Source: Actinomycetospora sp. TBRC 11914 (GTDB taxonomy: Bacteria; Actinomycetota; Actinomycetes; Mycobacteriales; Pseudonocardiaceae). Taken from it: a DNA stretch of 64,000 bases. Location: positions 1 to 64,000 of the forward strand of contig NZ_JABBND010000016.1 of NCBI RefSeq assembly GCF_012933465.1, given 5' to 3'. The position numbers and the translations under genes were made by a program. A model generated the notes under the pieces. It had not been told where the DNA came from, did no database searches, and saw only the letters and a list, made by a program, of their open reading frames with translations. Below are positions 26,951 through 44,910 of the stretch, in pieces (the stretch's first letter is position 1; every line of letters begins with the position of its first letter).

Positions 26951-28147
26951 ATGCGAGAGCTCCGGGTGGTGGGCCTCGGCGAAGAGACGTCGACGGTGGT
27001 CCTCGAGGACCCGATCCGTCACGAGCGCTTCGTCGTGCCCTCCGACGAGCGGCTGCGGGCCGCGGCGAGGGGCGACGTGCGCCGGCTGGGCCAGATGGAG
27101 ATCGCGACGACGAGCCCGCTGCGCCCGCGCGACATCCAGGCGCGGATCCGGGCCGGGGAGTCGGTCGCCGACGTGGCCGCCGGGGCGGGGGTCCCGGCGG
27201 CCCACGTCGAGCGGTTCGCCTACCCGGTGCTGCTCGAGCGGTCCCGGGTGGCCGAGATGGCCGGGCGGGGCCACCCGCTCGGCGAGGGCGGCGCGCCCGA
27301 CCCCCGCTCGCTCCTCGAGATCCTCACGGTGACCTTCGCCGGCCGCGGACAGGACCTCGGCGACGGCTCCTGGGACGCCTGGAAGGGCGAGGACGGCGCC
27401 TGGATCGTGTCGCTCGCGTGGCGCACGGGCCACTCCGACCACCTCGCGCACTGGACCTTCACGCCCGGGTCGTCGGGTGGTGCCGTCGCCCCGCGCGACG
27501 AGCCGGCGCGCGAACTGCTGGGCCTCGAGCCGGCCTCCGGCCCGCGGCGGGCCGACGGCTCGGCCGCCCGCCCCGCCGCGCCCGACGAGGCGCCGGCGGC
27601 CCCGGAGGAGGACGAGGAGCTCGGCCAGGGCGCACTGGCGGTCGGCGGCGGCACCGCGCGGCCCCGGTCGGGCGGCGCGCGGTCGGGCGGCGCCCCGCGG
27701 GGCGGCCGCGGCGCGCACACGGTCCCGGACCCACGCACGCCCGACCAGCACGCCTCCGGCGACCGCGCCGGGGCCGCCCGGGACAGCGACCGGCCCGCCG
27801 GCGCCGAGAAGCGTCCGGACAAGCGGCCGACCGAGCCGCGCCGCACCGAGGCACGGGCGCCGGAGCGGCGGGCCCGCGACACCGGACGCGCCACGGCCCC
27901 GCGGCACCGCGGCGAAGCGACCCGCCCGGAGCCCACGCGGCCGGAGTCGTCCCGCTCCGAGTCGTCCCGCTCCGAATCGTCCCGCTCCGAATCGTCGCGC
28001 TCCGAGTCCGCGCGCCCCGACCCCGGCCGCGACGACGGCGGCGGGGACGACCCGGACCGCGCCCGGACCAAGGGCCGCGGCCGCAACCACCCGATCGTCC
28101 CGTCCTGGGAGGACGTCCTGCTCGGGGTGCGCTCGCCCCGCTCCTGA
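26951..28147 (+). CDS. sepH: Septation protein SepH (DUF3071)
   Basis: 398 residues. The conserved N-terminal domain (MRELRVVGLGEETSTVVLEDP, then RPRDIQARIRAGESVADVAAGAGVPAAHVERFAYPVLLER, a helix-turn-helix) and the C-terminal PSWEDVLLGVRS motif define SepH, which binds and stimulates FtsZ assembly in Streptomyces and mycobacteria. Between them is a long disordered linker rich in Arg, Pro and Glu, including four 15-bp repeats coding ESSRS at 27944-28003. Start ATG 26951 fits the conserved N-terminus. Terminates before a repeat-bearing convergent gap. Confidence 0.92.
   Translation: MRELRVVGLGEETSTVVLEDPIRHERFVVPSDERLRAAARGDVRRLGQMEIATTSPLRPRDIQARIRAGESVADVAAGAGVPAAHVERFAYPVLLERSRVAEMAGRGHPLGEGGAPDPRSLLEILTVTFAGRGQDLGDGSWDAWKGEDGAWIVSLAWRTGHSDHLAHWTFTPGSSGGAVAPRDEPARELLGLEPASGPRRADGSAARPAAPDEAPAAPEEDEELGQGALAVGGGTARPRSGGARSGGAPRGGRGAHTVPDPRTPDQHASGDRAGAARDSDRPAGAEKRPDKRPTEPRRTEARAPERRARDTGRATAPRHRGEATRPEPTRPESSRSESSRSESSRSESSRSESARPDPGRDDGGGDDPDRARTKGRGRNHPIVPSWEDVLLGVRSPRS
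27944..28003 (+). repeat. 15-bp coding tandem repeat in the sepH linker
   Basis: Four consecutive units of the form GA(A/G)TCGTC(C/G)CGCTCC encode ESSRS each, within the disordered linker (residues about 332-351). Length variation between strains is likely. Confidence 0.8.
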
Positions 28148-39237: not shown

Positions 39238-42200
39238 GGGGCCCGGAAGCTCTGGGGAGCCAGCGCCCAGGCGGCCAGCAGGCCGCGCACCGGGTCGTCG
39301 GTGTGCACCCCGGCGTCGTCCACCCACACCCCGGGGAAGACCACGCGGGGCGGGGCGGTGCGGTCGTCGTCGGCCACCGCCACCCGGAGGCGCTCGTGCA
39401 CCACGACCTGCCCCGCCGGCAGCGCCCGCCCGACCGCGGCCGCCCAGGCCGCGGCGGCGGGCAGGTCGGCCCACGCGGTCACGACACCGGGTGAGCGGAC
39501 CTCGCCGTGGTGCCCGGCGGCCGTCGTGGGCAGGTCGAGCAGGTCGGCGAGGGCCGGGGCGCCGCCCACGGCCACGGGGACCACGTCCTCGGGGTCCAGG
39601 GCGGCGAGCAGCCACGGCCGGTCGAGCACGGCGGGCGCGGCGCCGCGGTCGGGGTCGGCGTCCACCACGCGCCCGCGGGCCGTGCGCACCCGCGTCGGCG
39701 GCTCGACGTCGGCGACCACCACCCGGCGCGCGTCGACCGCCTCGGCGAGCGCGGTGTGCGCGGCGAGCACCCCCGCCGCCGGCACCGGGCGCGCGGGGTC
39801 GGCGAGCCGGGCGAGCAGGTCGGTGGCGTCCCGGGCGTCGGCCACCCGCAGGTCGGTGCGGACCCCGACCGCGGCCAGGAACCCCGCGTCGAGCGCCGCG
39901 GCGGGCGCCGGGTCGAAGAGCGCGGCGAGGGCGGCCGCGGCACCGGGGTCCTCGTCGGCGGTCTTCGGGAGGCCGGCGTCTTCGGGCAGCCGCCAGTGCC
40001 CGGGCTCGTGCCCGGCGAGGCGCCCGTGGTGCGCGAGCCACCACGCCGTGTACGGGACCGGTTCGCCGGGCAGGGCGACCAGCGCCGAGCGCACCGCCCG
40101 GTCGCCGGCCAGCAGCGTCCACGCGGCGTCCCACCGGTCGTCCGCGACGAGGTCGAGGTCCCGGACGGCGACCATCGCGCTCGGCGGCCCGGCCGGTTCG
40201 TCGTGCCCCGGGCCCCAGCCCGCGGCCGGGTCGACCTCCTCGGCCCACCACGTCTCCTCGTCGTCGAGGTCGTGGTCGGGACCGGCGGGCGAGTCGTCGC
40301 GGACCAGGCCGAACCCGTCGAGCACCCCGGCCGCCAGCACCGCGGCGCGCCCGTGCTCGGCGACGGCGGCCTCGGCGAGCACCCCGACCGGCGAGTCGTC
40401 GCCCAGCACCGCCCGCAGCGCCCCGTCGGGCAGCACCAGCTCGTCGGCGCGGCGGTGACCACCCTCGGCGTCGGGCAGCGCGAGCGCCCCCCACTCCGGG
40501 CCGGCCTCCTCCCCCACCTCGGCGAGCAGGCGCAGCACGAGCCGGGCGAGCCCGTCGACGTCGAGCCCGGCCTCGGCGTCGTCGACCGAGCGGGCCACGC
40601 CCTCGACGAGATCCGGTTCCGCGAGCAGGGTCGCGGCGTCGGCCCGCCGGGCGCCGAGGGTCTCCAGCAGCGGGTGCACCGCGGCCGGGTCGACGAGCCG
40701 GACCCCGGGGAGCGCGTCGGTGGCCACGGCGTCTCCGAGGTCGGGTTCGGGCAGCAGCGTCCCGCGGGGTCCCGGCACGAGCCGGCCGTCGGCGAGCGGC
40801 ACCGGGAGCGCCGCGAGCTCCTCGCGTGCGGCCGCGACCGACGGGGTCGCGGCCAGCGCCTCGTAGAGCGCGTGCCACCACGACGGCGGGCGGCGCAGCC
40901 CGGCGAGCCGGTCGGCGAGCGCGGCGGGGCCGAGGCGGGTGACGCCCAGCGCGGCGAGCGCCGGCGCGTCCCGCGGCCCCCCGACGACGGCGGCCGCGAG
41001 GTCCCCCACCGCCCCGGCCAGCGCCGCGAGCAGGGCGTCGGCCGGGTCGGCGCCGGTGTCGAGGACGACGGCGTGCGCGGGGACGAGGTCGGGTCCCTCG
41101 ACGGCGGGCAGCCACGGCTCCCGGCGCAGCGCCTCGGTGACCGCGTCGCGCAGGAGCGCGTCGACCTCGGAGGCGGGGAGCGCCGCGGCGGGGACCAGGG
41201 CGGTGCGCCTGTCCGGCGGCAGCGCCGCGACGAGGGCGGGGTAGGCCGCGGCGGCGGCGCGGAGCACGTGGGTACTCACGGCACCGGCGCGGACGCGCCG
41301 CCGGTCGGGGTCCAGGGGGACGGTGACGACGAGGCGCGCCGGCAGCGTCGTCGTCTCCTCGGTCGGGGTCGGCGCGTGCAGGACGTCGGCCCGGGCGGGT
41401 CCGGTGGGCCGGGCGGGTCCGGTGGGCTGGGCGGGGACGAGCCACAGCCCGGACCAGCGGGTGCGCGTCCGGTCCTCGACGGCGAGGCCGGGCCGCCCGT
41501 CGTCGTCGAGGATCTCCGGCGGCAGCTCGCCGCCGATCGGCAGCGTCGTCCAGGTCGCCGTGGTCCCGCCCGGCCCCCGCAGCGTGACGGTCGTCGTGCC
41601 GCCCGGGCCCGTCTCCGTCCCGCGCCGCACCGTCTCGCCGGCCACGTCCACGCCCGCCAGCCACGGCAGCGCGAGCAGCAGGTCGGGGGCGTCGGCGAGC
41701 GCCCGGTCGAGCAGCTCGCTGGCCGGTCGGTCCACCGCGACCCGCACCTCGGTGTCGACGCCGTCGGGCAGCGGGTCGGCCAGGTCGGCGGGGTCGGCCG
41801 GCCACACCAGCCGCAGCGCGGGGACCTCGCCGCCGCGGCGCGCCAGCTCCGCGGCGACCGGACCGCCGAGCGCCGTCACCGCCTCGCGGGTCCGCGGGCG
41901 GGAGAACGCGACCCCGGCCAGGCCGCCGTCGGCGTCCCGCGTGACGAGCCGGGGCGCGTCACCGAGGGCGAGCACCGCCGCGAACCCCACCCCGAAGCGC
42001 CCGACGGTGCCCCCGTCGCGCTTCGCGGAGGCGCGCAGCGAGGCGAGCGCGGCGACCCCGTCGGGGTCCAGCGGGGCGCCCCCGTTCCCGACCCGCAGCT
42101 CCGCCGTCCCGTCGGGCCCGGTCACCACCCGCAGCCGCAGGACGGTCGGGCGGCCGGCGCGGGCCGCGGCGTCGGCGGCGTTCTGGGCGAGCTCGACGAG

Positions 42201-42366: not shown

Positions 42367-43260
42367 TCAGGACCCGTCGGGGTCCGCGCCCACCGCGACC
42401 GGCTCCGCCGGGGCGTCCATGTCCACGCCGTCGTCGTAGACGAGCTCCGCGACCGTGACGACCGACCCGGTGTCGATCTGCAGCTCGGAGTGCCCGCCGC
42501 ACCCGTACTCGGCGTGCACCACGTGCCCGTCGGCCGGGACGTTGCCGTTGCCGCAGACGCCGAAGGCACCGCGCAGCGACCCGGCCAGCGAGAGGTAGAA
42601 GCCGCAGGTGCCGCAGTGCGCCGACGCGGCCCGGGCCATCTCGGCGGTGGGGCCGAAGTCGCCGTCGGACCAGCGGGCGGCCGCGTCGAACCGGCCCTCC
42701 GGGCTCATGACGCGGGGGCGCCCGAAGCCGAGCTCGTCGGCGACGCCGCGGACCTGCTCGGGGTCCTCGGCCTCGTCCACCGGGTCGACGTCGTCGTCGA
42801 GCGCGGCGTGGGCCGGGACGAGCCGGTCGTCGTCGGAGTCGACGGGCAGCAGGTCGCCCGGCGCGAGGTCCTCGGCGCGGACGCGCTCGTTCCACGGGAC
42901 CCACTCGGGGGCGACGACGGCGCCCGCGCCCGGCAGCAGCGCGACCTCCCCGACGGTGACGGGGGCCTCCGGGTCCTCGTCCGCGGTCATCACGGTGACC
43001 GCCCACGTCCAGCCGCGGTAGCCGGGCTTGGCGGCCGCGAGGTAGTGGGTGGCCGCGGTGACGGGGGCGTCGCCCACGGCGTCCCCGCCGTCCTCGGCGT
43101 GGACGGTGAGCGCCTCGCCGACCTGGTCGGCCTCGCCGTCGGCGGCCTCGACCGCCGCGGCGCGCGCGACGTCCACCGCCGCGGCGAGGCGCGGCGGGAC
43201 GGGCCGTTCGCTGTCGTGCTGCAGGTCGGGGCCGGTGGTGGGTTCGGCGAGGTCGTGCAC
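42367..43260 (-). CDS. DUF3027 family protein
   Basis: 297 residues. The central region (HYLAAAKPGYRGWTWAVTVMTADEDPEAPVTVGEVALLPGAGAVVAPEWVPWNERVRAEDLAPGDLLP) is the DUF3027 hallmark; the C-terminal part has four cysteines, CGTCGFYL, GVCGNG and YGCGGHSE, that look like a zinc site. Function unknown; conserved across Actinobacteria. GTG 43260 follows CACAAT and seven bases (leaderless type). Upstream lies the repeat island. Confidence 0.87.
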   Translation of the reverse strand: MHDLAEPTTGPDLQHDSERPVPPRLAAAVDVARAAAVEAADGEADQVGEALTVHAEDGGDAVGDAPVTAATHYLAAAKPGYRGWTWAVTVMTADEDPEAPVTVGEVALLPGAGAVVAPEWVPWNERVRAEDLAPGDLLPVDSDDDRLVPAHAALDDDVDPVDEAEDPEQVRGVADELGFGRPRVMSPEGRFDAAARWSDGDFGPTAEMARAASAHCGTCGFYLSLAGSLRGAFGVCGNGNVPADGHVVHAEYGCGGHSELQIDTGSVVTVAELVYDDGVDMDAPAEPVAVGADPDGS

Positions 43261-43364
43261 GGGCCCGATTGTGCCGGACGCCGCGCGGTGCCCCCAGGGC
43301 CCGGGCGCGCAGGGGTCGCCCCGGGGCGCCGAGCGGGTCCGGGCGTGCCGCTGTGGCCGGCCGG

Positions 43365-43500
43365 ACCGACGCGTGACGCACACACCCCACCGGCGCCGAC
43401 ATCATCCGCACTCCGGCCAACCGACGCGCCACGCACACACCCCGCCGACGCGGTCATCCGCGCTCTGGCGAACCGACGCGGCACGCACACACCCCGCCCA
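43365..43500 (-). repeat. Left repeat set of the island, three units
   Basis: ACCGACGCG...CGCACACACCCC starts at 43365, 43420 and 43472 (spacings 55 and 52). On the minus strand the units read GGGGTGTGTGCG followed by CGCGTCGGT, clearly related to but diverged from the right set and in opposite orientation. Confidence 0.85.
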
Positions 43501-43571
43501 CGCCGACCCCGTGTCGTGGGCGGTCGGGCGGATCAGGGCACGTCCGGGCGAGCCGGGCACGGGGCAGCGCG

Positions 43572-43635
43572 AAGATCACGGAGCCCCTGCACGTCGATCG
43601 GATCTCCCGATGGAGTGCAGCGACTCCTTGATCTT
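43572..43635. repeat. Central 64-base imperfect hairpin of the island
   Basis: AAGATCA (43572-43578) pairs with TGATCTT (43629-43635); further in, GGAG/CTCC and TGCAC/GTGCA pair, and ATCGG/CCGAT closes the tip. It separates the oppositely oriented repeat sets. Confidence 0.75.
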
Positions 43636-43673
43636 GCCCGCTCGGTGCGCGCACCGACCGCGGCAGGCGCCCC

Positions 43674-44080
43674 GAGTGCGTCGGGCGCAGGTCCCTCCGC
43701 AGCCCTGCCCCTCGCGCCGAGTGTGTGCGCCACGCGCAGGTCCGTGCCGGACCGTCGACCCGTCCGGCTCGCTGTGTGCGCCACGCGCCGGTCCCTGCCG
43801 AACCGTCATTGCCGAGCCTTCGGCGCCCTGCGTCCTGTTCGTGTGCGCCACGCGCAGGTCGGTGCCGGACCGTCGACCCGTCCGGCCCCGTGTGTGCGCC
43901 ACGCGCAGGTCCGTGCGGAACCGTCGGCGCCTCGCCCGCGAGTGTGTGCGCCCCGCGCAGGTCGGTGCCGAACCCGTCACCCCGTCCGGCCCTGTGTGTG
44001 CACCGCGCGCAGGTCCCCGGAACCGTCACCGCGTCCCGGCCGTCCGTGTGCGCCACGCGTCGACCTCACGGACACGCGTG
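43674..44080 (+). repeat. Right repeat set of the island, about eight units of ~51 bp
   Basis: The core GTGTGCGCCACGCGCAGGTC begins at 43723, 43774, 43841, 43892, 43944, 43996 and 44046 (spacings 51, 67, 51, 52, 52, 50), with a degenerate unit before 43723. Units at 43723 and 43841 agree over nearly all 51 bases; outer units are more diverged. The core contains the palindrome TGCGC-CAC-GCGCA. Confidence 0.9.
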
Positions 44081-44094
44081 GGAACCTTCGCCGC

Positions 44095-44910
44095 GTGCGG
44101 GCGAGGGCGGTGCTGCTGGCGGTGCTCCTCGTCGCGGCGCTGGGGTCCTGCTCCTGGGAGCCGCTGCCGGCGGCCCCGGTCGGCGCGCTCGCCGACCCCC
44201 CGCCCGGCGTCGCACGGCTGCACGTCCAGGTGCTCGGCACCGTCCCCCACGACCCGGCCGCGTTCACCGAGGGCCTGGAGCTCGACGGCCGCACGCTCTG
44301 GGAGGGCACCGGTCTCACCGGCGCCTCGCAGCTGCGGGCGACCGACCCGGCCACCGGCGCCGTCGAGCGGGCGGTGGACCTGCCGTCGTCGCAGTTCGGC
44401 GAGGGGGTGACCGTCCTGCCCGACCGGATCTGGCAGCTGACCTGGAAGGACGGCGTGGTCTACGAGCGCGACCCCGCGACGCTGGCGGTCCGGCGCACCC
44501 TGCCCTACGACCGCGAGGGCTGGGGCATGTGCCACACCGCGACCGACGTGGTCACCAGCGACGGCGGCCCCGACCTCGTGCTGCGCGACCCGACGACGTT
44601 CGCCGCCCGCCGCACCGTCCCCGTGACCCTCGGCGGGACGCCGCTCGACCAGCTCAACGAGCTCGACTGCGGCGACGGCCGCACGGTCTGGGCCAACGTG
44701 TGGAAGACCGACGACCTCGTCGGGATCGACCTCGCGAGCGGCCGGGTCACCGCGGTGGTCGACGCCGCCGCGCTGCGCCCGCCGTCGACGACGGCCGACC
44801 CCGACGCGGTGCTCAACGGCGTCACCGCGATCCCGGGTGCCCCCGACGAGTTCCTGCTCACCGGCAAGCGCTGGCCGACGACGTTCCGCGTCCGGTTCGT
44901 GGCCGGCTGA
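44095..44910 (+). CDS. Secreted glutaminyl-peptide cyclotransferase (plant-type QC)
   Basis: 271 residues. Lipoprotein signal: ARAVLLAVLLVAALGSC with lipobox L-G-S-C (Cys about 19). The mature protein is a five-bladed beta-propeller of the plant/bacterial QC family: PHDPAAFTEGLELDGRTLWEGTGLTGASQL, GEGVTVLPDRIWQLTWKDG, WGMCHTATDVVTSDG, QLNELDCGDGRTVWANVWKTD and LNGVTAIPG. It converts N-terminal glutamine to pyroglutamate on exported proteins. GTG 44095 begins right after the repeat island. Its stop lies four bases before a palindromic element shared with the convergent gene. Confidence 0.9.
   Translation: MRARAVLLAVLLVAALGSCSWEPLPAAPVGALADPPPGVARLHVQVLGTVPHDPAAFTEGLELDGRTLWEGTGLTGASQLRATDPATGAVERAVDLPSSQFGEGVTVLPDRIWQLTWKDGVVYERDPATLAVRRTLPYDREGWGMCHTATDVVTSDGGPDLVLRDPTTFAARRTVPVTLGGTPLDQLNELDCGDGRTVWANVWKTDDLVGIDLASGRVTAVVDAAALRPPSTTADPDAVLNGVTAIPGAPDEFLLTGKRWPTTFRVRFVAG

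Follow-up and report, generated by a model that had tools for sequence, protein, structure and literature searches.

Outward-facing repeat arrays of two nearly exclusive unit types in a dispersed family of intergenic islands of Actinomycetospora

The repeat island between the DUF3027 and glutaminyl cyclase genes of Actinomycetospora sp. TBRC 11914 belongs to a dispersed family of islands, in which two opposed arrays of one unit run outward from a core. The genomes of this genus are close to exclusive for one of two unit types, and the type changes between species at shared island positions. The apparent use of one repeat version per species throughout the genome suggests that the units are recognized by a putative protein. 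The window referred to below is the whole stretch of DNA analysed, namely the first 64,000 nucleotides of contig NZ_JABBND010000016.1.

As can be seen in Table 1, the 20-bp core of the unit is present in the window island in three copies on the minus strand and in seven copies on the plus strand, with a palindrome placed between the arms. The 20-mer GTGTGCGCCACGCGCAGGTC is exact in three of the seven plus-strand cores and differs by one mismatch in two of them and by two mismatches in one. The distances between neighbouring units are 51, 67, 51, 52, 52 and 50 bp in the right arm and 55 and 52 bp in the left arm. An earlier note on this DNA had described the repeat, and all of the core positions were recovered: the three minus-strand starts it gave (43365, 43420 and 43472) are the low ends of the cores to within a base, and its seven plus-strand starts, from 43723 to 44046, agree with ours. 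The sequence which these seven units were said to share is shared approximately, with 0–4 mismatches, and the eighth plus-strand unit of that description corresponds to a degenerate copy at 43674 (4 mismatches, by eye). The island is situated between divergent genes, the start codons of which are separated by 834 bp. Two short tandem repeats were also found in the window by TRF (a 15-bp repeat of 4.3 copies at 27944–28008 and an 18-bp repeat of 2.5 copies at 41391–41435).

Table 1. Features of the window island and its two neighbouring genes (positions in the window).
Feature	Positions	Strand	Remark
Island	43334..44077	.	limits approximate (by eye); lacking in the syntenic DUF3027–glutaminyl cyclase intergenic region of relatives
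Type I unit core	43364..43383	-	
Type I unit core	43419..43438	-	
Type I unit core	43471..43490	-	innermost left
Central palindrome, "family A"	43572..43635	.	AAGATCA..TGATCTT, 64 bp
Degenerate unit	43674..43693	+	4 mismatches, by eye; part of family D4
Type I unit core	43723..43742	+	exact
Type I unit core	43774..43793	+	1 mismatch
Type I unit core	43841..43860	+	exact
Type I unit core	43892..43911	+	exact
Type I unit core	43944..43963	+	1 mismatch
Type I unit core	43996..44015	+	2 mismatches
Outermost right unit	44046..44065	+	second half degenerate, 4 mismatches (by eye)
DUF3027 gene	42367..43260	-	left neighbour; PF11228, E 6.8e-72
Glutaminyl cyclase gene	44095..44910	+	right neighbour; glutamine cyclotransferase PF05096, E 3.7e-80

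The repeat is real at the scale of the genome: the 20-mer core has 56 matches with at most 2 mismatches in the genome of the window, and the same pattern read backwards has none. By means of a weight matrix, 53 islands comprising 317 units were found in five genomes, namely that of the window, G001 (Actinomycetospora sp. NBRC 106378), G013 (a metagenome bin), G014 (A. chiangmaiensis DSM 45062) and G016 (A. soli SF1). The specificity of the matrix is illustrated by 340 matches scoring at least 10 in 535,760 bases versus 7 in the reversed sequence. An island was defined by at least 2 units, and where units on the two strands overlapped, the better one was kept. The 53 islands include some orthologues of one another; eight loci repeating others and five from outside the genus (three from Streptomyces, one each from Galbitalea and Ignavibacteria) were left out, L019 fell out of the count, and L021 and L025 are single matches inside genes and not islands.

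Units on both strands are present in 51 of the 53 islands, and in 49 of these 51 every minus-strand unit lies to the left and every plus-strand unit to the right of the core. The two exceptions consist of one opposite-strand unit call inside an arm and of one weak outer match. The order is the same for the second unit type described below: 10 of its 19 loci (from G007, G015 and G003) are two-sided, and all ten have the minus-strand units on the left and the plus-strand units on the right. Since the arm order is the same across islands, the outward order is most probably the design of the element and not the record of an old inversion, which was one of two origins considered in the earlier note; the other one, the outward growth of two opposed arrays from a core, with one unit in both, is supported. 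The gap between the arms varies from 13 to 761 bp with a median of 142 bp (five genomes). The spacing is far more regular, with 61 of the 79 neighbour spacings below 120 bp in the window's genome being exactly 52 bp. The pooled figure for the five genomes is 164 of 210, but the islands of the relatives were recruited by patterns requiring a nearby pair of units, so that only the value for the window's genome, the loci of which were chosen by single units, is free of bias.

The distribution of the family is narrow. A scan of 84,980 species (one genome per species, possibly omitting the window's own genome) detected paired units in 37 stretches, of which 32 belong to four Actinomycetospora genomes, G001, G013, G014 and G016, and none to Mycobacterium. 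The window's genome has 66 matches to the pattern of two units at a distance of 52 bp, G014 has 28, G001 26, G016 19 and G013 2, with no match in the other 13 of the 18 genomes of the genus and none for the reversed control in any of the 18. A looser half-site pattern, applied to 297 genomes of the family, revealed arrays also in G007 (129), G015 (17) and G003 (5) and none in G013 and ten further genomes of the genus; outside the genus it gave 1–6 matches in 5 of 279 genomes, with the reversed control matching once in each of four. At L205 in G187, from another genus of the family, a 24-bp tandem array of GTGTGTGCGGCTCGCCCAGCCCCG was noticed, its period being unlike that of the islands.

Two types of unit can be distinguished by the second half of the core and by the period: type I ends in CGCG-NN-GG and recurs with 52 bp, and type II ends in CGCAACG and recurs with 48–51 bp. 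GTGTGCG, CGCG and GG are near-fixed in the core, and positions 8–10 and 15–16 are free (positions 15–16 are CA in 90, TC in 36 and CG in 11 of 164 units, with others in the rest). Exact type I units number 79 in the window's genome, 49 in G001, 32 in G014, 25 in G016 and 2 in G013; among the remaining genomes there are 8 in G003, 8 in G007, none in G015 and 0–4 in each of the other ten, the reversed control giving 0–1 per genome. Exact type II units number 177 in G007, 13 in G003, 7 in G015 and 1 in G010 and are lacking in the other 14 genomes, including all five type I genomes (the control gave 1 match in one genome). The CTG/CTA form accounts for 4 of the 8 type I-like matches in G003 and for 5 of the 8 in G007, and in the one G003 case that was checked (L050) it is the arm of another palindrome. 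A palindrome of the form GTGTGCGCTGCGCGCAGGTGAGC..inner stem..GCTCAC is found near gene ends at L047 (G014), L050 (G003) and L051 (G009); its outer arm resembles the unit core and faces inward, and G009 has it without arrays.

The second half-site in G007, G015 and G003 is CGCAACG, CGCACC or CGCACAC, and G015 has a mixture of the three. The period of type II is 48 bp in G007 (30 of 39 spacings), 50 bp in G015 (16 of 20) and 49 bp in G003 (4 of 6). With a spacing of 52, 50, 49 or 48 bp depending on the species there is no conserved helical phase, and helical phasing by 52 bp was dropped as an explanation because of the 48–51 bp periods of type II. Coding repeats were ruled out as well, since three does not divide the periods of 52, 50 and 49. 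The perfect palindrome GTGTGCG-N3-CGCACAC occurs 31 times in the genus, and 13 of the 17 copies checked are not followed by any further unit on one of their sides. At L183:392 of G003 a perfect palindrome, GTGTGCGNNNCGCACAC, stands without an array between genes that enclose a full island in G016; it is possible that it represents a seed or a remnant.

The position of the window island itself is empty in all six syntenic relatives, where 53–116 bp without any unit separate the two start codons; in G012 the cyclase is present at a non-syntenic locus. Six more islands of the window's genome (L009, L010, L011, L016, L017 and L023) are unit-free in the sister G015, the flanks there being 0–239 bp apart with neither unit type between them. 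Other island positions are kept across species, and at several of them the unit type differs. Site L018 carries type I units in the window's genome, G001, G014 and G016 and seven type II units 48 bp apart in G007, where the right neighbour is unmatched; the corresponding region is 633 bp with one unit by strict patterns in G015 and 241 bp with one weak unit, one neighbour missing, in G003. At L098, compared in six relatives, there are type I units in G001, G014 and G016, nine type II units in G007, one type II unit and a palindrome in G003, and one type I-like unit, one type II unit and a palindrome in G015. Site L016 is of type I in the window's genome, G001, G014 and G016 and has two type II units, in one arm only, in G003; it comprises 77 bp without units in G015, and other genes intervene in G007. 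The hairpin between the arms at this site in G001 and G014 is 88% and 92% identical, respectively, to that of G003 despite the differing arm types. At L027, finally, type I units of the window's genome correspond to palindromic units in G015, and the same neighbours enclose 34 bp in G003 and 77 bp in G016, both unit-free (another gene intervenes in G007, and only one neighbour was matched in G001 and G014).

The unit types do not follow the tree of a single gene. In the tree of a D-lactate dehydrogenase-like protein from 7 genomes, the window's genome and G015 are sisters (100/100), and G003 groups with G001, G014 and G016 (97/97). The placement of G015 and G003 on these well-supported branches means that the unit type requires at least 2 changes.

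Between arrays of one genome the cores are 77–80% and the linkers 43–48% alike, with 29–32% for composition alone (four genomes, G013 with its 2 units being set aside). Within one array the linkers are 75–78% alike, which indicates growth of the arrays by local duplication. The raw contrast of core and linker is inflated, as the units were found by their core. When neighbouring 52-bp steps were chosen by likeness of the linker (at least 18 of 32 positions), the core was 86% alike versus 76% for the linker in 91 pairs, and in the 9 of these pairs with an undetected member the values were 58% and 69%, respectively; this test shrinks the core excess to 7–10 points. The stronger conservation of the core is real, if smaller than it first seemed and derived in part from the way the units were found, and some of the steps have decayed cores.

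The centres of the islands are heterogeneous. A hairpin as the pivot of the orientation change, as described in the earlier note, fits only some members of the family (18 of 49 inter-arm gaps measure 13–58 bp), and the structure of the 27 cores of 100–360 bp does not clearly exceed that of intergenic DNA elsewhere. A strict inverted-repeat finder detected at least 14 pairs in 5 of 30 cores, with a mean of 2.15–2.5 of 30 (maximum 6) in intergenic controls and 0.43 in shuffles. On folding, from which 3 cores longer than 360 bp were dropped, a value of z <= -3 was reached by 3 of 27 cores versus 0 of 27 and 1 of 27 controls, and z <= -2 by 4 cores versus 2 and 3 controls (27 each). Neither method gave a general enrichment, and the central hairpin was rejected as a general pivot. 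The centre of the window island (201 nt) folded alone has z = -2.46 relative to dinucleotide shuffles but is ordinary (z = -0.5) when the cores are compared in windows of 80 nt.

Within 400 kb, the window's genome contains the family A palindrome of this centre twice, each time beside units, and the palindrome is absent from 400 kb of G003 and from 400 kb of G010. A search of the genome gave 9 matches, five of which adjoin units (L019 included) and four of which stand alone. Repeated centres were also seen by eye: four tandem segments of ~160 bp with the family A palindrome lie between the island arms at L018:4850-5450, the core at L024:4790-5200 consists of about four ~105-bp repeats around another palindrome family, GGCCGAGTGGACC...CCCACTCGGC, and at L194:440-930 of G016 there are three tandem ~130-bp hairpin repeats (CAAGATCT..ACAGGATCTTG), at a site with an array island in G001 and G014.

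The best explanation of these observations, which we hold as quite possible rather than probable, is that the units of each array are sites read by a putative lineage-specific DNA-binding protein, which would be sequence-specific and probably dimeric, would be encoded elsewhere, and would have a regulatory function or structure the chromosome. A protein-binding array was among the possible roles listed in the earlier note and is retained here. We infer the protein from the exclusivity of the unit types, their change at shared positions and the core excess, and with it its dimer state and its shift of specificity. The unit would be a dyad-like dimer site, in which a strong, near-fixed GTGTGCG is separated by three free bases from a second half that depends on the lineage, namely CGCG-NN-GG in type I and CGCAACG in type II; the perfect palindrome with CGCACAC occurs mostly at the outer edges. 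Units placed at the species-typical distance and facing outward from the core on both sides may allow the bound protein to form a symmetric coat over roughly 0.15–1.3 kb of intergenic DNA. A change in the specificity of the protein would accompany the change of unit type, and, as a guess, the coated island could lie between transcription units as their barrier or anchor. Several points weaken this explanation: lineage-specific presence speaks equally for a selfish element, type exclusivity is imperfect, the raw core–linker contrast is inflated, the species differ in spacing and so keep no common helical phase, and the tree is that of one gene in seven genomes.

A broader formulation is rather unlikely but worth stating. 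The islands may be genome-wide intergenic nucleoprotein islands whose DNA code has been rewritten as a whole between sister species: the position and sometimes the central hairpin would persist, and the unit sequence and period (52 to 48–50 bp) would change together at unlinked islands, through a trans-acting protein with shifting specificity and active rebuilding of the arrays.

A transposase reading its own ends would fit many of the facts on which the recognition-site explanation is based. The islands would then be non-autonomous foldback-type mobile elements with the arrays as their long inverted ends, the sub-repeats of which would be bound by a transposase encoded at another locus. Islands would arise by insertion, and type changes by transposase takeover. 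We regard this as possible but less likely than a structural or regulatory protein. The inverted arrays around a variable core, the palindromes at outer edges, the window island and the six further islands of its genome whose positions are empty in relatives, and site L027, occupied in the window's genome and G015 and empty in G003 and G016, all are consistent with mobility. However, alignment of 8 occupied/empty pairs revealed no target duplication or clean boundary, their divergence being too high for a decision; among the islands counted, no core was noticed to carry a gene (the largest gap is 761 bp), and the unit number varies freely. The sole near-identical pair of islands, L058 and L059 of G001, shares 93% identity along 276 bp, part of which belongs to the upstream neighbour, and looks like a segmental duplication. 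The likeness of the L016 hairpin between species with differing arm types also argues against insertion of foldback elements, as do the lack of a Y1 transposase, the one family searched for, in the 18 genomes of the genus and the failure of the unit to match plasmids or phages (six stretches of viral contigs have one match each).

With respect to genes, 48 of the 53 islands lie between two genes, four have an uncalled neighbour and one overlaps an ORF call, all according to a home-made gene caller. The flanking genes of these 48 are tandem in 26 cases, convergent in 16 and divergent in 6, the window island being among the six; for the 20 islands of the window's genome alone the numbers are 7, 8 and 5, respectively, and the background of 219 regions longer than 30 bp in 400 kb of this genome comprises 121 tandem, 37 convergent and 61 divergent ones. 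Convergent junctions are favoured, and divergent ones are avoided in the relatives and not in the window's genome. The convergent excess would suit an RNA-level element, the transcribed stem-loops of which would terminate transcription arriving from either side or shield 3' ends, and GTGTGCG-N3-CGCACAC could form a 7-bp stem. Such a role is nevertheless improbable: positions 15–16 vary opposite the nearly fixed T2 and G3, no Rfam family was matched up to E = 1 over 1.9 kb, and the window island is located between divergent genes, as are 5 of the 20 islands of its genome, a share close to the background.

At least as improbable is the neutral amplification of a minisatellite that ectopic recombination has occasionally spread, which would account for the alike linkers within arrays and for that much of the core–linker contrast which stems from finding units by their core, but not for the strict outward order in both unit types, the genome-wide unit type at unlinked islands with type change at shared positions, or the core excess left in linker-chosen pairs. 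The neutral local duplication mentioned in the earlier note is correct insofar as the arrays do grow in this way, and it fails to account for the dispersal of the unit and for its near-uniform type per genome.

Among the known systems, the nearest bacterial kind is REP/BIME, which is likewise dispersed, intergenic, palindrome-bearing, clustered and species-specific (PMC2817692 and PMC3733652). Regularly spaced REPs in BIMEs have alternating orientations and are associated with IS200/IS605-like RAYTs, according to PMC2817692. In contrast, the arms of the islands are sorted by orientation, and RAYT-type Y1 transposase PF01797 was found in none of the 18 genomes of the genus, the control being detected in 5 of 14 named genomes. 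The island linkers, 75–78% alike within an array, are unlike the unrelated spacers of CRISPR. MIRU units are arranged head to tail in one orientation, so the comparison with MIRU-type repeats, made in the earlier note from the unit length, is not supported for islands with two opposed arms, a strict species-typical period and a near-exclusive unit type per genome. Common features are 40–100-bp repeats, actinobacterial intergenic DNA and lineage specificity; the rnc-fpg1 region, for example, bears repeats in the M. tuberculosis complex and is a few bp long in other mycobacteria (PMC2734929).

The arms of the islands, being regular direct repeats with a conserved core and a variable spacer, resemble the arrays of iterons or operators bound by replication or partition proteins, which are regular direct repeats of ~20 bp of the same construction. 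The units of the islands, however, are present in tens of copies over the genome, and no cognate gene was recognized beside them in an unsystematic look. Foldback elements, such as the eukaryotic Galileo and Tm1, have long inverted arms, in some cases made of sub-repeats, and a variable middle, and the inverted terminal arrays of the islands around a variable middle are similar to them. In the open-access literature, no counterpart was recognized among bacterial foldback elements, and nothing on Actinomycetospora repeats, divergent or opposed arrays, foldback, REP/BIME or MIRU was recognized as this island family.

The best-studied small bacterial repeats, REP/BIME, go with RAYTs, and here a large ordered family exists in a genus in which none was found. 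Two nearly exclusive unit types at shared positions constitute a natural experiment on the genome-wide rewriting of arrays. They also provide two defined baits of about 17–20 bp with which to search for a protein that may recognize the units.
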